From: Oceaniferula flava
GTDB lineage: Bacteria; Verrucomicrobiota; Verrucomicrobiia; Verrucomicrobiales; Akkermansiaceae
Direction of reading: 5' to 3'
DNA length: 64,000 nt
Assembly: GCF_016811075.1 (NCBI RefSeq)
Contig: NZ_JAFBGL010000008.1
Span: 124,001 to 188,000, forward strand
Made by a program: the position numbers and the translations under genes. Numbering within the stretch: the stretch's first letter is position 1; the number at the start of each line of letters is the position of its first letter. Below the pieces are notes generated by a model. The model did not search any database and had not been told where the DNA came from. It saw only the letters and a program-made list of their open reading frames with translations. Shown here in pieces: positions 7,620-51,835 of this stretch.

Positions 7620-10600
7620 ATGCACCGCGTATTCGTCGAAAAACAGCCCGAGTTCAACGCCCCTGCCCGCGAACTCCTGCACGATCTCCGTGAAAACCTC
7701 AGCCTCGATCACCTGGAGAACGTCCGCGTCATCCAGCGCTACGATGTCGACGGTCTCTCGGATGATGAGTTTGAAAAAACCACCCAACTCATTCTCTCCG
7801 AGCCACAGATCGCGGCCGCCTCTGATGAGATCAGCGTGGCCTCGGACGAAACCAGCTTTGCCGTCGAGTTCCTCCCCGGTCAGTTCGACCAGCGGGCCGA
7901 CTCCGCAGCGCAGTGTGTCCAGATCCTCACCCACGGCGAACGCCCAGCCGTCGCCTCCGCACGCGTGATCGTGCTCAAAGGCGCGCTCAGCGAGCAACAA
8001 GTCGCCGAGGTGAAGCAATACGTCATCAATGCCGTCGACTCCCGCGAGGCGTCGATGGAGAAGCCGGAATCGATCACCATTCAGTCGGACACCCCAGCCG
8101 ACGTCGAGATCCTCGAGTGGTTCACCACCGCCGATGAACACGCCCTGGCTGAAAAACGTCAGGAAATGGGCCTCGCCATGTCGCTGGCCGACATGGTGTT
8201 CACCCAATCCTATTTCCGCGATGAAGAAGGTCGCAACCCCAGCATCACCGAGATCAAGATGCTGGACACCTATTGGTCCGATCACTGTCGCCACACCACC
8301 TTTGCCACCAAGATCAACTCGGTGAAGTTCCAGGACGGCACCGAGGTCGTGGAGCAAGCTTACCAGCGCTACCAGGAAACCCGCGAAGACGTTTACGGGG
8401 AGAAAATCGACACCCGTCCGGAGACGCTGATGGACATCGCCCTGATCGGCATGAAGGAGCTGCGCAAAACCGGAGAACTCGACAACGTGGAAATCTCCGA
8501 GGAGATCAACGCCGCCTCCATCGTCATTCCCGTGGACGTCGATGGCGAGGAGCAGGAGTGGCTGCTGATGTTCAAAAACGAAACCCACAACCACCCGACC
8601 GAGATCGAGCCCTTCGGCGGCGCGGCCACCTGTCTCGGCGGCTGCATTCGCGACCCCCTTTCCGGTCGCTCCTACATTTTCCAGGCGATGCGTGTCACCG
8701 GCGCAGCCGATCCCCGCACGCCCTTCGCCGATACCATTCCCGGCAAACTGCCCCAGCGTAAAATCTGCAAAGGTGCGGCCGATGGATATTCGTCCTACGG
8801 AAACCAGATTGGACTCGCCACAGGTCAGGTCGCCGAGGTCTATCACCCGAACTACGTCGCCAAGCGCATGGAAATCGGTGCCGTGGTCGCCGCCGCGCCG
8901 AAGGAAAACGTCTTCCGCGGCACGCCCGCTGCCGGCGATGTCATCCTGCTGATCGGTGGTCGCACCGGTCGTGATGGCGTTGGTGGTGCCACCGGCTCAT
9001 CCAAAGAACACACCGATACCGCCCTCGATAACTCCGCCGAGGTGCAAAAAGGTGACGCTCCCACCGAGCGCAAAATCCAGCGACTTTTCCGCAAGGCCGA
9101 GCTCGCGAAGAAGATCAAACTCTGTAACGACTTCGGTGCCGGCGGTGTCTCCGTCGCCATCGGTGAGATCGCCCCGTCGCTCGAGATCAACCTCGACGCG
9201 GTGAAGAAGAAATACGACGGACTGGACGGCACCGAGCTCGCCATCTCCGAGTCCCAGGAGCGCATGGCCATCTGTGTCGATCCTTCGGAAATCGCCTATT
9301 TCATGGAGGAATGCGATCAGGAAAACCTCGAGTGCAACCACGTGGCAGACGTCACCGACAGTGGCAGACTCATCATCAAATGGCGCGGCAAGGAAATCGT
9401 CAATTTCTCCCGTGCCTTCCTCGATACCAACGGCGTCACCCTCGATACCCAAATCGAAGTCGCCGCAGCCAGCAGCGAGTGTCCGCTTGGAAAATCTCTG
9501 CCGTCCGTGGCCGCCGCCGACTCCCTCGAGGCCAAGTTCACCACCGCCCTCAGCGATCTGAACTCCTGCGGCCAGAAAGGCCTCGGCGAGCAGTTCGACG
9601 CCTCCGTCGGTGCTGGCACCGTCTTGTGGCCCTTCGGTGGTGCGCAGCAGCTCACGCCGACCGATGCCATGGTCGCCAAGATCCCACTGGTCGATGGCGA
9701 TACCACCACCGCCTCCTTCATGGCCTGGGGGTTCAACCCGAACATCGCCAGCTGGTCGCCTTACCACGGCGCACTCTATGCCGTCACGGAATCGGTCTGC
9801 CGCATCGTCTCCGCCGGTGCCCACCTCAGCGACATCCGACTGACTCTGCAGGAATACTTTGAAAAACTCGGCACCGATCCCACCCGCTGGGGTAAGCCAT
9901 TCGCCGCCCTGTTAGGTGCTTTCACCGCACAAAATGAACTCCGTCTCGGAGCCATCGGCGGTAAGGACTCGATGTCCGGATCATTCAACGACATCGATGT
10001 GCCACCAACGCTGGTATCCTTCGCCGTCGCCCCCGGAAAAACCACCCTCGCGGTGTCACCGGAATTCAAGGCCACCGACAGCGACATCTACCTGGTTTCC
10101 ACCCCGCGCGATGCCAACCAACTGCCCGACTTCGAGAAGTTGAAAGAAATCGCCGACCTGCTCTACGCGACAAACAGCGAAGGCAAAATCCTCGCCATGC
10201 ACTCGCTGGCGGAAGGCGGCATTGCCACCGGCATTTCCAAGATGAGCTTCGGCAACCACATCGGCGCAAGCATCAACAGCGACCAGGATCTCTTCCAAGA
10301 GCGCTACTTCAGCTTCCTCGTCGAGGTCAAAGCCGGCGAGTCCCTGCCAGCGGCATTGAACGCCGAGAAAGTTGGCCAGACGCACAGCGACCACTGCCTC
10401 ACCGTCGGGGAAGAGTCCATCTGTCTGGACAAACTCATCGCCGCTTGGACCGGCACCCTGGAGCCCATCTACCCGAGCCACATCGAGCCGGCGCACAGCG
10501 AGGTTGATACCTTCTCTTACGAGGGCGACAGCGCATCGCGTCAGTCATCGGCCAGCATCCAATCCGGAGCTCGCCCACGCGTGGTGGTGCCTACTTTCCC

Positions 10601-11369
10601 CGGCACCAACTCCGAATACGATTCCGCCAAAGCCTTCAACCAGGCCGGAGCCGATGCCGAAATGCTCGTCTTCCGCAACCTGACCCCACAAGCGGTCGAA
10701 GAATCGCTCGCCGCCTTGGCCGCCAAGATCCGCGAGTCGCAGATCCTGATGATCCCCGGTGGCTTCTCAGCCGGTGACGAGCCAGACGGTTCAGGCAAAT
10801 TCATCGCCACCGTGCTGCGTAACCCGCAGGTATCGGACGCCATCATGGACCTGATCAAGAACCGCGACGGATTGGTGCTCGGCATCTGCAACGGCTTCCA
10901 AGCACTGATCAAAACCGGCCTCGTCCCCTACGGCGAAATCCGCGATCCGCAACCGGGCGCACCGACCCTAACATTCAACGACATCGGTCGTCACATCTCC
11001 ACCTACGCCACCACCCGCATTGCCTCCACCCTCTCCCCGTGGTTGGCCAATACCGAGGTCGGCGATCTCCACAACGTCCCCTTCTCCCACGGCGAAGGAA
11101 AGTTCTACGCCAGCGATGAGGAAATCAAAGCCCTCGCCGCCAACGGCCAGATCGCCACCCAATACACCGACCTGGCAGGTAATCCCTCCATGGCCATCGA
11201 GCACAACCCTAACGGGTCGCTCTACGCCATCGAAGGCATCACCAGCCCATGCGGCCGGGTGTTAGGAAAAATGGGTCACACCGAGCGCCGCGGCGAAAAC
11301 GTCGCCAAGAACATCCCCGGCAACAAACACCAACCACTGTTCAAGGCAGGCGTGGAGTATTTTCTGTAG
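7620..11369 (+). CDS. purL: Phosphoribosylformylglycinamidine synthase, single-chain
   Basis: A 1249-residue enzyme for ATP- and glutamine-dependent conversion of FGAR to FGAM in purine synthesis. It is the fused form: PurS-like N-terminus, linker with the D-T-Y-W-S-D-H-C-R-H-T-T motif (about residues 218-229), two AIRS-type ATP-binding halves with the N-E-T-H-N-H-P motif near residue 320, and a C-terminal glutamine amidotransferase domain from about residue 980. That domain contains the nucleophile in GICNGFQAL (Cys1090) and SHGEGKF. Separate purQ and purS genes are therefore not needed. It is monocistronic and converges on the HEAT-like gene with an 8-bp gap. A long antisense frame (7599-8846) is a codon-bias shadow. 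Confidence 0.97.
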   Translation: MHRVFVEKQPEFNAPARELLHDLRENLSLDHLENVRVIQRYDVDGLSDDEFEKTTQLILSEPQIAAASDEISVASDETSFAVEFLPGQFDQRADSAAQCVQILTHGERPAVASARVIVLKGALSEQQVAEVKQYVINAVDSREASMEKPESITIQSDTPADVEILEWFTTADEHALAEKRQEMGLAMSLADMVFTQSYFRDEEGRNPSITEIKMLDTYWSDHCRHTTFATKINSVKFQDGTEVVEQAYQRYQETREDVYGEKIDTRPETLMDIALIGMKELRKTGELDNVEISEEINAASIVIPVDVDGEEQEWLLMFKNETHNHPTEIEPFGGAATCLGGCIRDPLSGRSYIFQAMRVTGAADPRTPFADTIPGKLPQRKICKGAADGYSSYGNQIGLATGQVAEVYHPNYVAKRMEIGAVVAAAPKENVFRGTPAAGDVILLIGGRTGRDGVGGATGSSKEHTDTALDNSAEVQKGDAPTERKIQRLFRKAELAKKIKLCNDFGAGGVSVAIGEIAPSLEINLDAVKKKYDGLDGTELAISESQERMAICVDPSEIAYFMEECDQENLECNHVADVTDSGRLIIKWRGKEIVNFSRAFLDTNGVTLDTQIEVAAASSECPLGKSLPSVAAADSLEAKFTTALSDLNSCGQKGLGEQFDASVGAGTVLWPFGGAQQLTPTDAMVAKIPLVDGDTTTASFMAWGFNPNIASWSPYHGALYAVTESVCRIVSAGAHLSDIRLTLQEYFEKLGTDPTRWGKPFAALLGAFTAQNELRLGAIGGKDSMSGSFNDIDVPPTLVSFAVAPGKTTLAVSPEFKATDSDIYLVSTPRDANQLPDFEKLKEIADLLYATNSEGKILAMHSLAEGGIATGISKMSFGNHIGASINSDQDLFQERYFSFLVEVKAGESLPAALNAEKVGQTHSDHCLTVGEESICLDKLIAAWTGTLEPIYPSHIEPAHSEVDTFSYEGDSASRQSSASIQSGARPRVVVPTFPGTNSEYDSAKAFNQAGADAEMLVFRNLTPQAVEESLAALAAKIRESQILMIPGGFSAGDEPDGSGKFIATVLRNPQVSDAIMDLIKNRDGLVLGICNGFQALIKTGLVPYGEIRDPQPGAPTLTFNDIGRHISTYATTRIASTLSPWLANTEVGDLHNVPFSHGEGKFYASDEEIKALAANGQIATQYTDLAGNPSMAIEHNPNGSLYAIEGITSPCGRVLGKMGHTERRGENVAKNIPGNKHQPLFKAGVEYFL

Positions 11370-11377
11370 TTTTCAGC

Positions 11378-14341
11378 TCAGACCAACTGTTGCTTCAACT
11401 TCTTCAAGGTGACCTCTGCCGCTTTCGGGAGCGAGACACTCTCGAGCTTGGTAAAATCAAACGATAACGAGGTCGGCACCTCCAAAGATAGATCTAACGC
11501 CAGCTTGATTAACGGGTTAATTTTTTGCAAGACTTCCGAGTCTTGCAAAACCCCATCCTCCAACGCTCCCAGAATCAAATCACGGACACGGGGCCTTAGA
11601 CGTGCATCTAAATCGGCCACAGCCCTCAAGGACGGCACCACTCGGCGCATAGGAAACGCAAAGTCAAACGCACTATTGAGCCCGACTCCCAGTACGAGGC
11701 GGAGATGAGACATCGCAGCATCCATTTGTCCATCCTGCTCAGCAATTAACCAGAGTTCTGGGGCACCTTCTCGTTGCACACGGTCTTCTGCAGCCAACAA
11801 GTATACCATGTGCCGCGCATAACCGACGCCAATTTGTAATCGCCGGTCCGCCAGGGCTTGGACCGTTACCGCCCCCACATTCTGAAATAGAAACAAATTT
11901 AAATATCCAGGAACAGCAGAGAGTGTCCAATTTACCATCGACGGATTCCTCAATTCTTCCGACCTAGCAAAAGGCATGGATATTAACTCAAGAAGGCATG
12001 CATCTTTGCAATCTCGGAAATAAACTCCGTCATTATCCACGAGAGGAGCTGGATCGGCGGGGTCAGGATAAGTTCCGTTATCGTAACTGGACAGTCTGCT
12101 GAAATCACAAAAATTTGACCACTCAGGCACACTCAGCGGCAATAACTCAGCCAGGCCAGCGATTTCGGCTAAGCTGCACATTGGATCTCGCATTCTCGCC
12201 GCAGTAATCCACCACTCGACAGTTTCGACACATCCCAGCAGCACACCATCGACAAGAAATGAAATGACACGAAGTGCCTCAGGATCATCTGGCTTCACTG
12301 GTTTACTTAATTTGGCGTCTCGTCCGTCCCAGCGTGCAAGCCCTTGCACCATGTCAGTAAATCCGACTTCATGCCCATCTGCTATGATGGCACGCACTCT
12401 CAATTCTAGATCCGAGAACGACACAAACCCTAGACCTGTTGAAGGTCTCCCTATGAGAGACCTTGCCTTGCCCTCGAGGAAGATTTCCAAAATTTCCTTC
12501 ACTCTGCATCGCAAGAATCGCATCGTCCCCACAATGTGGTCTCCCTCAAGCGTAGAGTGCCATCCGCTGTTCTGCACTCCGCGAACAGCGATAATCGTCT
12601 GTGCGATAAAAACTCGAACAGGACAATGTTGCCACGGATCTGCGCACAGCTTCTCGGCTCGCTTTTCAAAAACTAGAAAAGCATCTATCAACGTCTGACG
12701 ATCCGAGCGATCGATACGAGCCAAGCCATCTAAGAATAGCTCAAGTTGAATTGAATCCGGTGCCTTTGCGGACAACAGCTCATTGGCAGCATACACCACA
12801 TCATCGATTCCTTTCTGAGGCTTTACAGGCTCCCCGATTGGGAAATCCACCCGTTCGATCACATTCACAACTTCGTTGGAAACAATCTTGTCTTCGGTCC
12901 ATGGCTTGAATTTTTCCTTGAGAGATCCTAAAATTGAATTTTCGAAGGCAGAGATCCGCAACCGAAGCAGCTCATCTCCCTTGTCAGGTTTCTCTCCGAG
13001 CATTTTCAGCACTGCCTTCTGAACATTAGCCGCTTTGAGCTGTAATAGCGGTGCCACCATCTCTATCAGGTGCTCCCTTTGATCTGGCATAGCATCACAC
13101 AGCCGGCAAAGAACTCCGATCGCAAAAACCAGCAAGGGCTTCGACTTCACATGAGTAAACACAGGAACTATTTCATCAGCGATGGATTTAAGATCGTCAG
13201 GCCCAAGTACCACAATAATCTTATCAATTTGCTCTAATGAAAATCGCACTACAGGAGGGAAAGGATTTGCTAGCAACGTTAGCAAATCATCGAAGTAGGG
13301 TAAAATAGCTCCGCTGGCACCGTCTGTGATTAACTCAAACGCTCTCCTCAGATCGCGAGAATAAAATTCCTTTGTTTCACTTGCTATCGTTCCCAATAGC
13401 TCCGTTAGAAATGGCTTTAAATTGATCGAACCCTCGGCACTCAAATGTCGTAAAGCCAATGTCAATTCACTGGGCACCCATGCATCTGGCCGCGGCAGCT
13501 TGCCATTTTGCCAGTAGAGCTCAGCCTCCTTCGACGGGTTCACCCATTCGGGAGCGGGACTTTTGTTCTTCCCCCAAGGTTCACTCAGCGCTTCCGCGTC
13601 ATATCTAGCAAGTTCCGTGTGGTGGCAATCATCAACTTGTAGTAAATAGTTAGAAATGTGAGCCCTCCACGCAAATCCAGCCCATGGCGCATATACCTCG
13701 GAGCCTCGGTTAGACAAACGAACAGATTCAGGTAAATCGTGCTCAACAAATTCCACGTCCTCCAATAAAAAGGCCGCCAACTCGCCGCTTCCGAGTTGAA
13801 AGTGGCTCTGCATATGCAGGGGCAACTGCAGGTAGTAAGGGTGACCTGTTAGTGGTCGAGGATAGACACCGGTGCGAACATATGGAAACAACCCCTGAGC
13901 AACTGAAGCGTAATAATATCTGGCATTTTCCGCGGCGAGATCCAACATTTCAATGAGCCAGCCAGGATTGCTGGACACATAAAACTCAGCCATTTGTGGG
14001 TCATTGAACCATGGTAAACAGGGCCGAATCGCACTTTTGATGACACCAGTTAATTCATCGTGACGAACCCCAGTTACCAGCAGCGACCAAGAGACGGCAT
14101 CTGCCTCCCTTTCAATTCGCCGATCATAATCCGTATAGGACAATGAAAAATTCCATTCATCCCGATTAAGGGCCTCTCGAATCCCCTCACGCTCAGCCTC
14201 TAAAACTTGGTGATGTGTTAGAGCCGCAGCTTCCAATTCTGCGAAATCCGATGGATCAATACCTAACAATAGACCAATCTGCTTCGGCATATCCTCAATC
14301 TCACATAGTTGTTTAAAAACCTTCATCATTTTATCTAGCAT
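11378..14341 (-). CDS. Giant HEAT-like protein (DUF6493-like), partner of the SWIM gene
   Basis: An approximately 987-residue protein with no signal peptide or clear membrane segment. Most of it reads as amphipathic helical pairs, e.g. about residues 300-480 with the recurring pattern L-L-a-N-P-F-P-P-V-V-R-F-S-L-E-Q, suggesting an alpha-solenoid of HEAT type. No catalytic motif is seen. From memory it resembles proteins annotated DUF6493, often beside SWIM zinc-finger genes, but this is unverified. It overlaps the SWIM gene (stop 14331-14333): start candidates are TTG 14344, ATG 14341 and ATG 14329, the last one base past that stop, so translation is coupled. GC and codon use are lower than in neighbours (sampled lines about 45-50%), suggesting acquisition. 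Confidence 0.7.
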   Translation of the reverse strand: MLDKMMKVFKQLCEIEDMPKQIGLLLGIDPSDFAELEAAALTHHQVLEAEREGIREALNRDEWNFSLSYTDYDRRIEREADAVSWSLLVTGVRHDELTGVIKSAIRPCLPWFNDPQMAEFYVSSNPGWLIEMLDLAAENARYYYASVAQGLFPYVRTGVYPRPLTGHPYYLQLPLHMQSHFQLGSGELAAFLLEDVEFVEHDLPESVRLSNRGSEVYAPWAGFAWRAHISNYLLQVDDCHHTELARYDAEALSEPWGKNKSPAPEWVNPSKEAELYWQNGKLPRPDAWVPSELTLALRHLSAEGSINLKPFLTELLGTIASETKEFYSRDLRRAFELITDGASGAILPYFDDLLTLLANPFPPVVRFSLEQIDKIIVVLGPDDLKSIADEIVPVFTHVKSKPLLVFAIGVLCRLCDAMPDQREHLIEMVAPLLQLKAANVQKAVLKMLGEKPDKGDELLRLRISAFENSILGSLKEKFKPWTEDKIVSNEVVNVIERVDFPIGEPVKPQKGIDDVVYAANELLSAKAPDSIQLELFLDGLARIDRSDRQTLIDAFLVFEKRAEKLCADPWQHCPVRVFIAQTIIAVRGVQNSGWHSTLEGDHIVGTMRFLRCRVKEILEIFLEGKARSLIGRPSTGLGFVSFSDLELRVRAIIADGHEVGFTDMVQGLARWDGRDAKLSKPVKPDDPEALRVISFLVDGVLLGCVETVEWWITAARMRDPMCSLAEIAGLAELLPLSVPEWSNFCDFSRLSSYDNGTYPDPADPAPLVDNDGVYFRDCKDACLLELISMPFARSEELRNPSMVNWTLSAVPGYLNLFLFQNVGAVTVQALADRRLQIGVGYARHMVYLLAAEDRVQREGAPELWLIAEQDGQMDAAMSHLRLVLGVGLNSAFDFAFPMRRVVPSLRAVADLDARLRPRVRDLILGALEDGVLQDSEVLQKINPLIKLALDLSLEVPTSLSFDFTKLESVSLPKAAEVTLKKLKQQLV

Positions 14342-15692
14342 CAATCAATAAGTGAACGGCCAATACATGAGCGCAAGGCCCGCGGCTTTCACCGAACTGA
14401 CCACACCAAAAACAACTACACCGGAAGCGTTTCCCTGCGATAGCAACCTGGTAATTACGCCCCTCGCCCAAATCTACGTGAGCATGGATTTCGTCTTCTT
14501 TCTGCCTATCAACTATTACTCGACCATCCTCCAGCCACCTTCGAGCACTCACTAACCGTGGATTCACCTTTTCTACCAACAGTTCGCTCCCAGGCAAAAC
14601 CCGCTCATAGCAACTCCCCGTCATTTGGTCAAAACCCACCAAGCCCTGAGAAGCCAGTCGCGCCAGAACTCGACGAAGTGTCGGTAAATCAATGCCACAA
14701 TGAATCGCCAATACCTCGGGATCAATCAATCCGGTATCCGCCAAGTGTGCACGAACCTCATCAACGCGATCATCTACTTTGACAAGTTCACCCAACGCGG
14801 CTCCTTCTCCCGAAAATCCTCGCCATACTTCCGGTGAAATAAGTATCCCTATTCTGAAACCCTCAAAGCTCAACGTCCAGCTACTCATTGTTCCGTCGTT
14901 GTTCGCGTGGATCGTTAATGAAGCTGCAAAAGGCACCAACTCCTGCAAAGCCAGCAAGCGCCGCCCGCCGGAGAGCTGAATGGCTCCCTGTGTCTGAATG
15001 CGACTTATCCTTGGTCTATTCGGGTCAGGTGAAAGCCAGTGAGTATCCCTGCTATCGCCCACTTGGGGTAACTGGGCGAACAAATCTCTCGCGGCCACTC
15101 CGTCAAGCGACAGCACTTTTCCAAATTCAGAGACGATCGCCTGAACGCTCGCAAAGCCCTTAATCCAGCTCAACGGTAGCTTCACTTTTTTCTCGATCAC
15201 CGTTTCGTCGTCGCGAGTTAACAAAAAATCGTCCCGCGACACACAGACACTCAGGTCCTGGCCTCTCCGAACCCTGCCCAGTGCCCGGCACATCTCTTGA
15301 TTAAAATCGATATTCGTCGTTCCTCGCTTTTCCTGCACCACATTCACACCCTCCGGAAGCACATCAATCCGACCATAAACCGAACGACACGCCGAAAAAC
15401 CTTCAAAGCGTAAATGGCCACATCCAGAAGTGACCACAGGATCCATCTGCCGAGAACGAGCCACCTCAGCTGGGTCAAACCATCGCTCACCGACTACACG
15501 AGCCATAATATTCAAAGCTCGCGCCAATAGCCTTGCATTGCGGAACTGCCCTTGAAAAAACGGAGCATCTTCGCCAGCTGGAACATTTGCCGCCAGAGAG
15601 AGCGTCATGTCAGTTCCAATATTTTCTATACGGGAAGCTCTACTATACCGAAGAACGAGCTGATTATCAGAAGCTGACACAACGCTATTCAA
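14331..15692 (-). CDS. SWIM zinc-finger protein
   Basis: A 453-residue protein whose C-terminus carries a SWIM zinc finger: C-S-C-F-W-C followed by P-C-A-H-V, matching the CxC...CxH pattern at about residues 427-446. SWIM fingers bind DNA, RNA or protein. The N-terminal 150 residues are Arg-rich with short strands; the middle (about 310-360) looks like a winged-helix segment (I-D-L-P-T-L-R-R-V-L-A-R-L-A-S-Q-G-L-V-G), a likely DNA-binding or dimerising module. It is the first gene of a two-gene unit with the HEAT-like protein. There is no MoxR ATPase or VWA gene nearby, although SWIM genes often sit with them elsewhere. Confidence 0.82.
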   Translation of the reverse strand: MNSVVSASDNQLVLRYSRASRIENIGTDMTLSLAANVPAGEDAPFFQGQFRNARLLARALNIMARVVGERWFDPAEVARSRQMDPVVTSGCGHLRFEGFSACRSVYGRIDVLPEGVNVVQEKRGTTNIDFNQEMCRALGRVRRGQDLSVCVSRDDFLLTRDDETVIEKKVKLPLSWIKGFASVQAIVSEFGKVLSLDGVAARDLFAQLPQVGDSRDTHWLSPDPNRPRISRIQTQGAIQLSGGRRLLALQELVPFAASLTIHANNDGTMSSWTLSFEGFRIGILISPEVWRGFSGEGAALGELVKVDDRVDEVRAHLADTGLIDPEVLAIHCGIDLPTLRRVLARLASQGLVGFDQMTGSCYERVLPGSELLVEKVNPRLVSARRWLEDGRVIVDRQKEDEIHAHVDLGEGRNYQVAIAGKRFRCSCFWCGQFGESRGPCAHVLAVHLLIDAR

Positions 15693-17728: not shown

Positions 17729-18526
17729 ATGAAGTATATCGAACCACACGCTCACATGGTGAGCCGGACGACTGACGATTACCAAGCGATGGCCATGGCT
17801 GGCTGTGAAGTGATTTGTGAACCTGCCTTTTGGGCGGGTTTTGATCGCTCATCCCCCCAAGGTTTTTACGATTATTACCGCCAACTGACCGAATACGAAC
17901 CAGCGCGAGCGAAGAAGTTCGGCATCGAGCACTACTGCTGGCTCTGCATCAACCCGAAGGAGGCTGAAGATGCCGGATTTGCACGCGAAGTCATGGCGAT
18001 CATCCCCGAGTTCATGGACTGCCCCACCGTGCTCGGCATCGGTGAGATCGGCTTGAACAAGAATACCGTCAGTGAGCTGGCGATTTTCGAAGAACACGTC
18101 GAGATTGCCAAGAAATACGATACTCCGGTGTTAATTCACACACCCCACTTGGAGGACAAACTCAAGGGAACCAAGCTCATCATTGACGCCTTGAAAAACG
18201 CCGATATTGATCCGGGAAAAATCATCATCGACCACGTCGAGGAACACACCGCAGGCCTGGTCCTGGATGCCGGGTTCTGGGCGGGCATGACCCTTTACCC
18301 CGAATCGAAATGCACCCCGGGTCGCGCCATCGATATTCTCGAAAACTTCGGCATGGAAAACATCTGGATGAACTCCGCTTGCGACTGGGGCATCTCCGAT
18401 CCCCTCGCCGTGGCCAAGTGCACCATCGAGATGAAAAAACGCCAGCACAGCGAGGAAATCATCAGCAAGATCGTCTATGACAATCCGGTGAAATTCCTCA
18501 GCCAATCGAAGAACTTCAACCTCTAA
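17729..18526 (+). CDS. eboB: TatD-family metal-dependent hydrolase, EboB type
   Basis: A 265-residue TIM-barrel hydrolase of the TatD group. Metal-ligand motifs are visible: P-H-A-H-M at residues 6-10, the glutamate in G-I-G-E-I-G near 109, V-L-I-H-T-P-H near 138, D-H-V-E-E-H near 171 and the aspartate in N-S-A-C-D-W-G near 217. The E-P-A-F-W-x-G, F-G-I-E-H-Y-C and C-D-W-G-x-S-D-P-L patterns match EboB proteins of the ebo cluster rather than DNase-type TatD. Ebo proteins are linked in cyanobacteria and algal endosymbionts to movement of a metabolite to the periplasm; the substrate is unknown. EboE is three genes downstream. Confidence 0.85.
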   Translation: MKYIEPHAHMVSRTTDDYQAMAMAGCEVICEPAFWAGFDRSSPQGFYDYYRQLTEYEPARAKKFGIEHYCWLCINPKEAEDAGFAREVMAIIPEFMDCPTVLGIGEIGLNKNTVSELAIFEEHVEIAKKYDTPVLIHTPHLEDKLKGTKLIIDALKNADIDPGKIIIDHVEEHTAGLVLDAGFWAGMTLYPESKCTPGRAIDILENFGMENIWMNSACDWGISDPLAVAKCTIEMKKRQHSEEIISKIVYDNPVKFLSQSKNFNL

Positions 18527-18529
18527 ACC

Positions 18530-18739
18530 ATGGATTCCGATCATCTCGAGGAGCTGAAAGCCACGCTGGCGAAACTTCCCCACACGGAACAGGACCACAT
18601 TGCGGGCTTCTTGTTGATGGAGCGGATGAAGCGCAATCAGCTGGTGATGCCCGTCATGCACCAACGCATCGACGACGCAGAACCTGAAAACTGGAAGACC
18701 TGGGAAAAAACCAAGCAGTCACTAGGTGACAACCGGTAG
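18530..18739 (+). CDS. Antitoxin-like small protein
   Basis: A 69-residue helical protein starting 3 bp after eboB. The layout, an N-terminal L-K-A-T-L-A-K-L-P segment followed by E-Q-D-H-I-A-G-F-L-L and a C-terminal W-K-T-W-E-K-T, resembles small antitoxin subunits of RelE/ParE-type modules. Its TAG stop (18737-18739) lies inside the GTAG foot of the REPIN-like element, so the insertion may have set or altered its C-terminus. A RelE-like gene begins 135 bp downstream. The pairing is inferred from order and size; neither gene has been matched by search. Confidence 0.55.
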   Translation: MDSDHLEELKATLAKLPHTEQDHIAGFLLMERMKRNQLVMPVMHQRIDDAEPENWKTWEKTKQSLGDNR

Positions 18740-18866
18740 GGCAGATTGGCCTCAATCTGCCGGATCGGAGCAATTCATGCCCTATCACCAACACGCTTCA
18801 ACCAGCTCAAAGAGCCCTCCCAATATTTCACGCACCACCCGGCGGCATGAGGCCATGCCGCCCTAC
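18736..18866. repeat. REPIN-like pair of inverted palindromes
   Basis: Two hairpins face each other. Left: GTAG (18736-18739), stem 18740-18748 with 18753-18761 (9 bp), loop GCCT. Right: stem 18841-18849 with 18854-18862 (9 bp), loop AGGC, then CTAC (18863-18866). Reverse-complementing the right unit gives the same design as the left, GTAGGGC-R-G...GGCC...GCCGG. Outer GTAG tetranucleotides at the foot of each hairpin and inverted pairing are the defining geometry of REP/REPIN elements mobilised by RAYT (TnpA-REP) transposases. No RAYT gene lies in the window. Confidence 0.75.
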
Positions 18867-18874
18867 CTCGTCCA

Positions 18875-19126
18875 ATGAACACCCTCGTCTACATCCACAG
18901 TCACGCTGCCGATCATCTCGCAGGGCTCGGAAAGCCTGAACCGGTAGCCGAGTTCATCTCGCAGCTGGAACGCAATCCGGAAACCGTGGGCGACTACCGC
19001 CAGCCTGATCCCCGAGGACGCATGATCGAAGTGAAGATTCTCGGTCGCCAAGCGGTGCTCTTTTTCAAAGACCCGTTTGCCGGATTGGTGAAAATTCTCG
19101 AGATCCGCAACGTAGAGGGCGTGTAA
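18875..19126 (+). CDS. RelE-like toxin candidate
   Basis: An 83-residue protein with a pattern seen in a RelE-type family: an N-terminal V-Y-I-H-S-H-A strand, a helix (V-A-E-F-I-S-Q-L-E-R-N-P), then G-D-Y-R-Q-P-D-P-R-G-R, a V-K-I-L-G-R-Q-A-V-L-F-F strand pair and a final V-K-I-L-E-I-R strand. This strand-helix-strand order is that of the RelE/ParE fold, whose members cleave mRNA on the ribosome or poison gyrase. Catalytic residues cannot be fixed by eye. The presumed antitoxin gene (18530-18739) is separated from it by the REPIN-like element. It sits between eboB and eboE. Confidence 0.6.
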   Translation: MNTLVYIHSHAADHLAGLGKPEPVAEFISQLERNPETVGDYRQPDPRGRMIEVKILGRQAVLFFKDPFAGLVKILEIRNVEGV

Positions 19127-19156
19127 GTTTTAATCTCTAACACTGAACACCAAGTT

Positions 19157-20311
19157 TTGAAAATCGCGAACGCTCATCTGGCCTATTGCACCAATATTCA
19201 CCCCGCTGAAAGCTGGGAAGAAACCCTAACAGCACTGAAGGAACATACGCTGACCGTTAGAGACAAGGTCGCTCCATCGGCACCTGCGCCCGGCTACGCC
19301 ATCGGCCTCCGTCTTTCCGCACGCGCTGCTGATGAATTGTTAGAAGGCAGCAACCTCGCCGATTTCAAACAATGGCTGGAGCAAGAAAACTGCTACGTGT
19401 TTACCATCAACGGCTTCCCCTACGGCAGCTTCCACGGCACTCGCGTGAAAGAGCAGGTTTTCCTGCCCGATTGGACCAGCGACGAACGACTCGACTACAC
19501 CATCAAGCTCTTCTCCATCATCGCCCAGCTGGTGCCGGAAGGCATCGATGGCTCGGTCTCCACCCTCCCTGGCTCGCACAAACAATTCGAAGCCGACGAC
19601 GCCCCGATTTTCAAAAACTTGGAAATCTGCGCGGAGAAAATAGAGGAATTCTCACAGCAGTATAATAGAGACTTACACCTCGGCCTCGAGCCGGAGCCTC
19701 TGGGGCATTTTGAAAATACCGAGGAGTCGTTGGCGTTTTTCGATCGATTCCTCAAGGTCGCGTCCAACCCGGACCTGATCAAACGCAGAGTCGGTATTAA
19801 CTACGACACCTGCCACTTCGCGCTTGAGTTCAACGACTGCCGCCAGTCGCTCGACGCCCTCAGAGCCGCAGGCATCCGCATTTCCAAAGTCCACCTCTCC
19901 AGCGCCTTGGAATTCGATCCCCTTTCACAAGAATCTCTGGAATCCATCCGCAGCTTCGACGAACCCACCTACTTCCACCAGGTGATTGTGTTGGACTCCG
20001 ACGGTCACCTCACAAGACACCGTGACCTCCCCGACTTCTTCGCCTCGATAGAAAACACCCAACCCACTCCGCCCGACCCAGTAGCGGGGCGGATCCATTT
20101 CCACATCCCCCTCTACGCCGAACCGGGAGCTCCGCTGCGCTCGACGCAATCGCACGCCGTGGATGCGCTGGAATACTTCGCAGAGCACCCTGATTTCTGC
20201 ACCCATTTCGAGATTGAAACCTACACCTGGGGCGTGCTCCCCGGCGACCTTCAGATCACCATCGAAGATCAAATCGCCAAGGAATACCAGTGGGTGTTAG
20301 AGCGTTGCTAG
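19157..20311 (+). CDS. eboE: Metabolite traffic protein EboE (xylose isomerase-like TIM barrel)
   Basis: A 384-residue protein beginning with the EboE signature A-H-L-A-Y-C-T-N-I-H-P-A-E-S-W (residues 6-20). It has the xylose isomerase-like TIM-barrel pattern with conserved acids and histidines: L-G-L-E-P-E-P, N-Y-D-T-C-H-F-A, K-V-H-L-S-S-A, F-H-I-P-L and F-E-I-E-T-Y-T-W. The start codon is TTG at 19157, because the conserved N-terminus begins there and no in-frame ATG or GTG precedes it. EboE acts with EboA-D and F, proposed to move or process a metabolite towards the periplasm. Only EboB and EboE are present here, so the set is partial or split. Confidence 0.88.
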   Translation: MKIANAHLAYCTNIHPAESWEETLTALKEHTLTVRDKVAPSAPAPGYAIGLRLSARAADELLEGSNLADFKQWLEQENCYVFTINGFPYGSFHGTRVKEQVFLPDWTSDERLDYTIKLFSIIAQLVPEGIDGSVSTLPGSHKQFEADDAPIFKNLEICAEKIEEFSQQYNRDLHLGLEPEPLGHFENTEESLAFFDRFLKVASNPDLIKRRVGINYDTCHFALEFNDCRQSLDALRAAGIRISKVHLSSALEFDPLSQESLESIRSFDEPTYFHQVIVLDSDGHLTRHRDLPDFFASIENTQPTPPDPVAGRIHFHIPLYAEPGAPLRSTQSHAVDALEYFAEHPDFCTHFEIETYTWGVLPGDLQITIEDQIAKEYQWVLERC

Positions 20312-49228: not shown

Positions 49229-51835
49229 TCAGTTGCCGTAGATCTCGATTTCGTGGATCGACCAAAATAAGTTTTTGATCTTACCGGTCTGAGTGATCCT
49301 CACAAATCGCCCCTTGGTGCCTGCCGGCAGAGAGATGTTAGTGATGGGATTTTTTCCAGTGCCGCTGGCCAGCGCTTGACTCCATTGGCGACCGTTCGCC
49401 GAGACCTGCACCTGATAGCCACGTGGAAAATCTCGGGCGGACCTTTGCGAGTCGAGCACAATGGCATCGAGTTCGGTTTCCTTGGGAAACTCAATCTGAA
49501 TCCACATGCCGGGTTCTTGCCCCGCTCCTGTGGTGTAGCGGCTTTTGGGGTTGCCATCGACGGCGAGCTTAAGGTCCTTGCTTTTGTGGCTGGCGCTCAG
49601 TTTCCACTTCTTCTTGTTCGTCAGCGGTTGTGGTTCGAGGGCTTCCAGCTCTTTTTGCGTCCATGGCTTTTTCCTCGACGAGTGCTCTTTGCGCAGAACG
49701 GCGACGTTTTCGGCACGGACAAAGTCCGCCTGATTGCCGAAGCTGTTGCGGATGTAGTTGGCCACATCGGCAATCCATAGGTCGTCATTGTTCGCCATCG
49801 CCACCATCAACCCTTCATATTCACGACCATCCAAGTCGCCGGTCAGTCCGTGCAGTAGCGTGCGGATGGTGCTCTCCCCGCCACGACCTAACACCCGTGC
49901 TGAACCGACAAACGACGGGGCTAACTTCTCACCTTCCTGACCTGGCATCGGAGTGCCTTTGCCGTCGTTCCCGTGGCATGAGAAACACAACTGCTGATAG
50001 ATCACCTTGCCCCGCTTCATACTTTTGGAGAAGGCAGCTCCGAGTTTCTTTTGTTTCAACTCGGCCTGCTTATCGGCGAATTCGGAACGCTGCGCTTGCG
50101 CCAGGGCGGAGATGGTTTCGTTGTCTTGGAAGTGCTCGGCAATCTTGTCACGGAACCCTAACAAAACTGGTGAGACCGTTCCACTGGTGTTGATGGAGTT
50201 GAATGTTTGAATCACCATCTCGATATCCGACTTCATCGCAGGAGAGCTGGTCAGGGCCTTGATGACTTCGGGTTTTTCACTGAGTAAATAGGGCTCGGCA
50301 CAACGCACGGCAGAGCTTCGCACCAGGGACGATGTATCCTTGAGGGCGGTGACAACGTTCTCTGGGCTCAGTTTTCCCATGCCCTCCAGCGTCCACAGAG
50401 CATGCAACCGACCCAGATCGCTCTGGCCATCAGAGAGCAGCTTTTCCAGGGCTGGAACCACACTTTCTCGGTCGGAGCGCAGGATGATCAGCTTCTGCGC
50501 GGTATCGCGCCACCAGCCGTTCGGGTGAGAAAGATGCGCGACCAGCTCGGCCGTGCTTTCTTCTAACATGCGAGGTTGACGATCCGGCTTATAGGAATCG
50601 TGAACCAGTTGGTAGAGCCGTCCTTTGCCAATATTTTTATCCAGCCCCCACTTGTCAATGATACCACGCAGGTAGCTTTTCGGTCGTGTCCAATTCCCCT
50701 GCTGGATGATGCCCCGGTGCATATCGAGGATCATCAGGGCTCCATCCGGAGAAGTCGCCGTCCACACCGGGCGGAAATTGATATCGCGTGAGCGGATGAA
50801 CTCTGACTTCGGGTGGACATTTCTCAGCACGCTTTTGCCGTTCTCACGGTCCACTTCCACCTGGCGAATCAAGCGACCGACTGGCTCGGGGATCAACAAG
50901 TCGCCCTTGAGATCAGCCGGCAAGCGATCGCCCCGGTAAATGCTCTGCCCGGCGACACCGGTGAAGTTGTTCAGTCCCCCATTCGGTCCAACGCGGCGTT
51001 TCCCACCCTGCACATCGGGCACTTCCGCGATCGGATACACGGTGCGGAAGCCGGGTTCTTCTTGACCACTCAAGTTCAGCGCGCCGTAAGCGATCGGTTG
51101 CTGAAAATAAAGTGCCGGTTTTTCGCCTCCGGCGGTCGAGTAGTACAAACGTCCGGCGTCGTCTTGGCTGAGCCCCCACTGGCCACCACCACGTGGCAGT
51201 TTCTGCACCTCTAACTTGCCATCGGTGAAGCGGTAGCGCTTGGCCTCGTAGGTGAGATAGATCCAGTTATCCAGATTCCACACCAGGCCGCTCGGTTGGT
51301 GTTCCATATTCCCACCACGCCGGCCGCCTTCGTAGATTTTGACTTTTTCATCCGCAACCCCATCGCCATCTGTGTCGCGATAGTTCCAGAGATCGAGCGT
51401 ATCGGTAACACCCACCATCACGCGGTCATCGAGTGGCAGCACCATCCGGGGCAATTTCAAGTTATCAATGAACACGCTGTGTTGGTCGTAAACTCCGTCG
51501 CCATCGGTATCTTCGTGACGGGAGATTAGGCTCTCTGGTTTCTTTTCGCCCGTAGCATCCGCATCTTGCATGTAGGTGCGCATCTGCACCACATAGAGCA
51601 CGCCATTGCCATCCCATGCCATCGCGACCGGTTCATGAATGTGGGGCTCGCTGAGCACGAGCTCCAGGCGATATCCATCCTTCAGTTCAATGGATTTCAG
51701 CGCCTCATCTTTTGATAGAAACCCTTTCTGATAGATCTTATCTCCAGGTTCGGCGGTCAAAGGGCTGATGCATAGGAGCGATAGAGCTAAAAAGCTCAGT
51801 TTGGTTTTGCGGTGAGTGGGGGCTAATGAGTTCAT
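49229..51835 (-). CDS. PVC-type heme-binding CxxCH protein with beta-propeller and discoidin domains
   Basis: An 868-residue exported protein from ATG 51835. After the signal (residues 1-28) comes a glucose-dehydrogenase-like propeller (about 40-400) containing two calcium-type loops D-T-D-G-D-G-V. Then a HEAT-like helical region (about 410-600), a cytochrome c domain with C-F-S-C-H near residue 635, and a C-terminal discoidin-like F5/8-C domain (about 740-868). This multi-domain form is typical of Planctomycetes and Verrucomicrobia and is annotated PVC-type heme-binding protein; the electron partner is unknown. It lies on the opposite strand inside the sulfatase locus. Confidence 0.9.
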   Translation of the reverse strand: MNSLAPTHRKTKLSFLALSLLCISPLTAEPGDKIYQKGFLSKDEALKSIELKDGYRLELVLSEPHIHEPVAMAWDGNGVLYVVQMRTYMQDADATGEKKPESLISRHEDTDGDGVYDQHSVFIDNLKLPRMVLPLDDRVMVGVTDTLDLWNYRDTDGDGVADEKVKIYEGGRRGGNMEHQPSGLVWNLDNWIYLTYEAKRYRFTDGKLEVQKLPRGGGQWGLSQDDAGRLYYSTAGGEKPALYFQQPIAYGALNLSGQEEPGFRTVYPIAEVPDVQGGKRRVGPNGGLNNFTGVAGQSIYRGDRLPADLKGDLLIPEPVGRLIRQVEVDRENGKSVLRNVHPKSEFIRSRDINFRPVWTATSPDGALMILDMHRGIIQQGNWTRPKSYLRGIIDKWGLDKNIGKGRLYQLVHDSYKPDRQPRMLEESTAELVAHLSHPNGWWRDTAQKLIILRSDRESVVPALEKLLSDGQSDLGRLHALWTLEGMGKLSPENVVTALKDTSSLVRSSAVRCAEPYLLSEKPEVIKALTSSPAMKSDIEMVIQTFNSINTSGTVSPVLLGFRDKIAEHFQDNETISALAQAQRSEFADKQAELKQKKLGAAFSKSMKRGKVIYQQLCFSCHGNDGKGTPMPGQEGEKLAPSFVGSARVLGRGGESTIRTLLHGLTGDLDGREYEGLMVAMANNDDLWIADVANYIRNSFGNQADFVRAENVAVLRKEHSSRKKPWTQKELEALEPQPLTNKKKWKLSASHKSKDLKLAVDGNPKSRYTTGAGQEPGMWIQIEFPKETELDAIVLDSQRSARDFPRGYQVQVSANGRQWSQALASGTGKNPITNISLPAGTKGRFVRITQTGKIKNLFWSIHEIEIYGN

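Follow-up and report, generated by a model that had tools for sequence, protein, structure and literature searches.

A very divergent SWIM–DUF6493 gene pair with a predicted PCNA-like clamp fold in Oceaniferula flava

The stretch of DNA analysed here (hereafter, the window) comprises 64,000 nucleotides (nt) of the Oceaniferula flava genome (Verrucomicrobiota, Akkermansiaceae; contig NZ_JAFBGL010000008.1, positions 124,001 to 188,000). Two overlapping genes within it are the subject of this work: one encodes a protein with a SWIM zinc finger, and the other, following it on the same strand, encodes a large protein that we call the HEAT protein. The pair and its parts are as follows, in coordinates of the window.

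14331–15692, minus strand: SWIM protein gene, an open reading frame (ORF) of 453 amino acids (aa) with a TTG start
14826–15557, minus strand: predicted two-domain PCNA-like sliding-clamp fold, residues 46–289 of the SWIM protein (AlphaFold2, Foldseek, VIA-align)
14604–14771, minus strand: probable winged helix, residues ~308–363 (weak helix-turn-helix matches and the helix/strand pattern of the model)
14367–14420, minus strand: SWIM zinc finger CxC...CxH, residues 425–442, with invariant ligands
11378–14344, minus strand: gene of the DUF6493-family partner, predicted to be HEAT/ARM-like, an ORF of 988 aa
14331–14344, minus strand: overlap of the two genes, 14 nt according to the ORF coordinates

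A first-pass annotation, made from the sequence alone, had described a coupled two-gene unit of lower GC and unusual codon use, with a SWIM motif, a giant helical protein and no MoxR or VWA partners; every one of these descriptive points held on closer analysis. With translation starting at the second codon (ATG), the 14-nt overlap would shrink to 11 nt. The GC content is 0.512 for the SWIM gene and 0.486 for the HEAT gene, and values that low occur in 13 and 10, respectively, of the 163 ORFs, each 250 aa or longer, that we drew from 331 kb of this genome. GC at third codon positions is 0.48 for both genes, against a background of 0.666 ± 0.094, and equally low values occur in 13/163 ORFs for each. 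The codon-use distance of the SWIM gene (0.555) is reached by none of 50 length-matched ORFs, and that of the HEAT gene (0.525) by one of 15. Despite the 13 ORFs equally low at third positions, the compositional deviation of the pair is real and exceeds chance. The HEAT gene ends 8 nt away from the convergent purL gene. No MoxR, VWA or reverse transcriptase (RT) gene adjoins the pair among the nearby ORFs scanned, a BLAST search of the window for MoxR gave no matches, and a promoter/terminator scan gave a result near chance.

Pfam and NCBIfam scans of the two proteins returned nothing firm. The PADLOC profile SWIM_XIII, on the other hand, matched the SWIM protein with a whole-protein score of 158 bits (E 7.5e-47). 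The four zinc ligands, C425-x-C427 and C440-x-H442, are invariant in all 67 proteins of our alignment, which contains the window protein and those from 66 of the 80 related loci described below, namely loci with SWIM ORFs of 430–495 aa. Also invariant are D84, R95, E97, C102, R108, D110, N127, D129, W176, R291-G292-F293, G295 and G297, a set lying in and just after the putative clamp region.

The AlphaFold2 model built from this alignment has a mean predicted local distance difference test score (pLDDT) of 89.4 and a predicted TM-score of 0.85. In a Foldseek search of the PDB, the best row for the model was PCNA (E 7.1e-10), and of the 458 rows that reached E 0.001, the 50 listed were all clamp entries; in a viral structure library, PCNA was again the best row and most named rows were clamps. 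VIA-align superposed residues 46–289 on a PCNA clamp with Z 17.1 and a root-mean-square deviation of 3.0 over 215 residues, far above the Z of 7–8 that the tool's own guide gives as typical of unmatched models; folds missing from its lists were not counted as evidence. Residues 46–289 are thus confidently predicted to adopt the two-domain fold of PCNA sliding clamps, a likeness known here from a predicted single-chain model. In contrast to PCNA, the SWIM protein carries a zinc finger and, between it and the clamp region, a probable winged helix. Helix-turn-helix matches in this part were weak (GntR, E 0.02; Csa3, E 0.008; CasR, E 0.004), and helix-turn-helix proteins of the PDB scored E 0.12 and up.

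The partner was recognised by a hidden Markov model (HMM) built from 71 SWIM-adjacent partners, all 780 aa or longer, that came from 85 loci, the window being excluded. The HEAT protein scored 126.8 bits (E 3.9e-38), while none of its 21 shuffled or reversed copies was listed up to E 10; hhalign with five plasmid partners gave E 4.3e-6 and a probability of 86.7. A profile search had been among the checks suggested by the first-pass annotation: the HMM identified a DUF6493-type protein, and a direct Pfam scan showed no DUF6493 match up to E 0.1 and no WGR domain. BLASTP against one annotated DUF6493 protein reached E 0.14. The AlphaFold2 model is almost entirely helical with disordered stretches (mean pLDDT 78.6). 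Its best structural rows were ARM/HEAT proteins at Z 11.8, below the tool's guide of ~13 for repeats, no Foldseek row reached E 0.001, and a 66-row alignment searched against PDB sequences had a best E of 0.042, mostly with AP-1/AP-2 beta and thymidine phosphorylase. A HEAT/ARM-like superhelix is what these models predict.

The two genes belong to a large family. A five-row alignment, scanned against one genome for each species, led to at least 587 confirmed SWIM protein relatives among 596 pattern matches, and their taxonomic spread was very wide. The locus counts that follow refer to the best 80 of these relatives. A DUF6493-type gene adjoins the SWIM gene in 79/80 loci and was scored directly downstream in 74; L054, L067, L070, L124 and L126 have the partner in other arrangements or frames, and in L086 it was not found. 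The count of 79 is partly circular, as the partner HMM was largely built from the same loci. SWIM gene and partner overlap by 4 nt in 13/80 relatives when the first start codon is taken. No third gene occupies a constant place in the flanking ORFs of 86 sets (the 80 loci, five plasmid loci and the window), the largest other clusters comprising 11 and 9 loci at scattered distances. The independence from MoxR/VWA suggested by the first-pass annotation is supported, but its 'stripped-down' system is not: two genes, both present in 79/80 loci, are the normal form of the family. In the annotated records consulted, the partners bear only domain-of-unknown-function labels. Tandem pairs of DUF6493-type genes follow one SWIM gene in L044 (8995–15328), L082 and L088.

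Relatives of the window SWIM protein were also found in eight plasmid records, five at 33–36% identity and three at 26–31%, the best tblastn match having E 2e-64 over 97% of the protein. Four of them, at 33–35% identity, are annotated as 'SWIM zinc finger family protein', and another has a broken or partial frame without annotation. The gene after SWIM is annotated as DUF6493 in three plasmids, is of the DUF7824 type in a fourth and is a 1,042-aa ORF in a fifth. The clearest comparison is the pair of a SWIM protein and a DUF6493 (PF20103)/DUF7824/DUF7825 protein on the Asticcacaulis plasmid pASDW145_1, which has the same gene order and overlapping genes, encodes proteins of 449 and 980 aa, and has a SWIM protein 35% identical to that of the window. 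On the Streptomyces cadmiisoli plasmid (L049, ~8812–11096), a 27%-identical SWIM protein is followed by a GntR regulator in place of a DUF6493 gene.

The window shows the features of this family: a SWIM protein of ~450 aa homologous over its full length, an adjacent partner of the DUF6493/7824/7825 type, and the order SWIM then partner on one strand with overlap. It differs from the known pairs in that its HEAT protein lies below Pfam detection and its SWIM protein forms the longest of 67 branches, with 2.2 changes per column (the next has 1.27). Judged by sequence, the window pair is a very divergent member of the two-gene SWIM–DUF6493/7824/7825 module. Because its row is too long-branched to be placed in the tree (support 55/91), we name no donor.

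Several lines of evidence bear on the mobility of the module. Two Sphingomonas genomes share a single block of 4,660 nt at 97.6% identity, which comprises the pair plus a few hundred additional bases; nothing else in 21 kb matches. As the shared block surrounds just these genes, the unit can move alone. Similarly, the match of 85–86% between L078 and L084 is limited to the pair. The window SWIM protein had no match in any of the 13 congeneric genomes sampled besides its own (76–98% complete). Among 387 genomes of the phylum, the SWIM family profile matched 13, with 491 bits for the window's own protein, ~146 bits for two others (one being a SWIM_XIII protein) and no more than 28.3 bits for the remaining ten. 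Searched with the HEAT protein, the same 387 genomes returned only its own copy, and plasmids returned no match.

We compared the purL region in seven congeners. On the ribF/mdh side, the genes are kept in three, partly kept in a fourth and not kept in two, and the contig of the remaining one begins at this point. Beyond purL in the other direction, none of the seven matched the window ORFs, and two share a gene of their own. Since the purL flanks differ in this way, the pair sits at a variable boundary of the genome. Atypical codon use, absence in congeners and mobile relatives together make it likely that the window pair was acquired from another bacterium, as the first-pass annotation had proposed. 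A phage origin was considered and rejected: there was no match in 50,697 phage records, and none was confirmed in viral contigs.

The SWIM_XIII match leads to retrons. We take 'XIII' in PADLOC to denote retron type XIII, which includes one HEAT and one SWIM protein, and the loci fit this assumption. Across 14 further genomes from the order, the top SWIM_XIII matches scored 557–774 bits over the whole length (11 genomes) or 375–443 bits over a part (three genomes); in the same order-wide search, the window SWIM protein was matched in two pieces of 78 and 67 bits. An RT relative follows the SWIM gene in 13 of the 14 loci, the fourteenth contig ending inside the SWIM gene, and each has a long ORF of 458 to 2,094 aa upstream, one of which was scanned and contains WGR and HEAT domains. 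The 2,094-aa gene, in L034 (9611–15895), is about twice the size of the largest of the others. When the profile of the 67 SWIM proteins was aligned by hhalign with that of 12 of the 14 retron proteins (L030 and L040 being left out), the two matched end to end over 442 columns (probability 100, E 1.1e-50). At the profile level, the window SWIM protein, which stands outside the main SWIM_XIII group, is thus homologous over its whole chain to the retron type XIII SWIM protein, and on account of this end-to-end homology the retron protein probably has the clamp fold as well. Neither the predicted clamp fold nor this full-length homology had been noticed in the first-pass annotation.

The two systems have in common a large helical-repeat gene beside the SWIM gene. 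They differ in that the window pair has no adjacent RT, its partner is unrelated by sequence and has no WGR domain such as that of the scanned retron partner, and its order is SWIM–HEAT as opposed to upstream ORF–SWIM–RT. Filing the pair as a type XIII retron by its PADLOC name was therefore rejected, the RT being missing, the partner unrelated and the closer relatives being RT-free pairs. It is best read as a sister of the type XIII HEAT/SWIM pair that lacks an RT and would act on DNA. A SWIM gene near WGR or helical-repeat genes occurs in three contexts that are different in other respects: retron XIII (L027–L039), the yeh region of Escherichia coli K-12 (L180) and the SWIM–DUF6493 pair. In the yeh region, the annotation lists yehF as PF05406 (the WGR family), yehI as DUF4132 and yehQ as SWIM.

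What the neighbourhoods say about defence was assessed by scanning 195 of 279 listed nearest-neighbour proteins from 66 loci (thresholds 1e-10 and 1e-20). Septu PtuA/PtuB adjoin L088, and Zorya III ZorB/ZorF adjoin L074. Single-gene matches include AbiEi, ShosA, PsyrA, mad3 and a CARF-AAA regulator, among the 25 of 81 families listed for part of the scan. We regard this evidence as suggestive and a defence role of the pair as plausible.

Taken together, these data lead us to a scenario to which we assign a probability of roughly one half: the window pair would be a horizontally acquired, very divergent copy of the SWIM–DUF6493 module whose products engage DNA as one complex. In the function that we infer, the clamp-fold, winged-helix and zinc-finger parts would contact nucleic acid or else a partner bound to DNA. 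The HEAT superhelix might act as a scaffold, loader or sensor arm. The likeliest use would be protection against foreign DNA or DNA damage without an RT, given that the module is accessory and mobile in its distribution and that its SWIM protein is homologous to that of retron type XIII.

Some observations weigh against this scenario. A sequence search of clamps (PDB sequences and E. coli DnaN) finds no similarity to the SWIM protein, so the clamp claim rests on predicted structure. The four supposed ring-lining helices are weakly basic, with family mean net charges of 0.25 to 1.48 each (the first has +3 in the window protein), and the second clamp domain seemingly has fewer strands than PCNA, judging from secondary structure and from what we take to be the PCNA strand order. 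The smaller number of strands may remove the ring interface, and with both features in view ring formation appears doubtful. Two of the eight plasmid SWIM relatives have no DUF6493 gene next to them, and thus SWIM relatives exist without that partner; the start of the next ORF of one of the two resembles, by eye, a retron XIII RT. As for transfer, the first-pass annotation held that vertical inheritance and average composition would speak against it, and the result is mixed: mobile relatives and atypical codon use favour transfer, but Actinomycetota form one clade in the tree, as under vertical descent, and some close relatives, such as L053/L054, L071/L077 and L117/L130, have common flanks too. 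Around the window pair, the far side of purL differs over more than the pair, and no clean empty site was seen in the seven congeners. Finally, a multi-gene defence system stands beside only two of 66 loci, a weak linkage that leaves the 'possibly defensive' role of the first-pass annotation unproven. The control, 102 genes picked at random from the window's genome and scanned at 1e-10, showed no multi-gene system but single-gene matches to 24 families, probably from about four proteins (an RT, REase_II, mad2 and PbeA); drawn from one genome, it is a poor control.

Among the alternatives, a role in genome maintenance is possible, though we consider it unlikely. The pair would be a DNA-repair or replication-stress accessory whose clamp-fold protein tethers it to damaged DNA while the HEAT protein recruits repair enzymes. 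The clamp fold and the very wide taxonomic spread would suit such a role, as would the lack of relatives in the phage and viral collections searched and the Pfam families of 102 neighbours, mostly metabolic or regulatory among the 25 of 112 listed. The patchy, mobile distribution argues against it, as does the homology to a protein that PADLOC includes in a defence model. A separate and rather improbable reading is that the clamp–winged helix–SWIM proteins would be true bacterial PCNA-like clamps, loaded on DNA with help from the HEAT partner in place of an AAA+ loader; retron type XIII would then be an RT-added branch of an older DNA-sensing module, and SWIM–DUF6493 its RT-free branch.

We find it still more doubtful that the two genes form a self-contained killer-and-restrainer pair of the toxin–antitoxin kind, or a selfish pair, in which one protein keeps the other inactive. 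Overlapping genes, a mobile unit and plasmid copies near VapBC and Fic toxin genes (two records) fit this idea, but both proteins are large and neither matched a toxin or antitoxin family in Pfam, NCBIfam or PADLOC.

A broken or split type XIII retron, which lost its RT or uses one in trans, is very unlikely. The SWIM homology speaks for it, and so does a lone 521-aa retron-like RT in the same genome. This stand-alone gene lies on contig C10 at ~50033–51598 (L009:778–2343, L041:8034–9599), between 6-phosphogluconate-dehydrogenase-like and RecQ-like genes named by eye; in PADLOC it scores better with RT_other (412 bits) and RT_outgroup (391) than with RT_XIII (318). It is one of two RT matches in the genome, the other, on C13, being group-II-intron-like as read by eye; the window is on C8. 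No relatives of either window protein were found in the 18 kb around the C10 gene. Against such an origin, BLAST found no relative of the HEAT protein in any of the 14 retron XIII loci, whose upstream ORFs scored no more than 12.4 bits (best domain) with the partner HMM, and the gene order is different. Moreover, of the 50 genomes with the pair that were searched (50 of the 80 loci, many of them drafts), 25 show no RT by the RT_XIII profile, and in four an RT reaches at least 500 bits. Three retron-type RTs used as BLAST queries gave no matches in the flanks of the 86 sets, and an Rfam scan of the window for msr/msd RNA gave none either, although the type XIII RNA may be missing from Rfam.

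The weakest candidate, a stripped-down MoxR/VWA/SWIM system like E. coli yehL-yehM-yehP-yehQ (MoxR, YehM, VWA, SWIM), shares the SWIM finger and has a few MoxR- or VWA-type neighbours of relatives in its favour (one ORF, in L084, by MoxR BLAST in the flanks of the 86 sets; AAA_3 in one, AAA_5 in two and VWA_2 in two of the 102 neighbours by Pfam), but we reject it as highly improbable, since YehQ aligns with the SWIM family profile only around the finger (hhalign probability 3.6), the two-gene form is near constant and the window has no MoxR/VWA partners.

As far as the literature searched allows us to say, the SWIM–DUF6493 pair is known as a gene pair but is uncharacterised, and what is new here is the predicted PCNA clamp fold of the SWIM protein. 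The search returned nothing on DUF6493, on WHSWIM or the SWIM domain with retrons, on a clamp-fold SWIM protein or on a XIII effector, although the fold could still be reported elsewhere. The passages searched in PMC12548924, PMC12262390, PMC13405049 and PMC8867640 contain no mention of SWIM or XIII, those in PMC7159879 none of SWIM or retrons, and those in PMC12839542 none of SWIM, PCNA, clamp or retron. We believe that the predicted fold offers a structural lead to the job of a pair whose SWIM protein has at least 587 relatives, and that homology would extend this lead to the SWIM protein of type XIII retrons. It makes testable the idea that DNA is sensed or gripped by a HEAT/clamp-fold pair when phages attack or damage occurs, whether or not an RT is present.

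We would also mention the surroundings of the pair. Family scans identified the nearby ORFs as purL, an acetylesterase, a 123-aa ORF without a family, a TatD-like gene and eboE. The last two, at 17729–20311 on the plus strand (NCBIfam EboE, 419 bits), look as if they belong to an Ebo metabolite-traffic cluster. Eight ORFs in the window's right half (~39000–61500) fall into one cluster that looks sulfatase-like by eye, as in a polysaccharide-degrading region.

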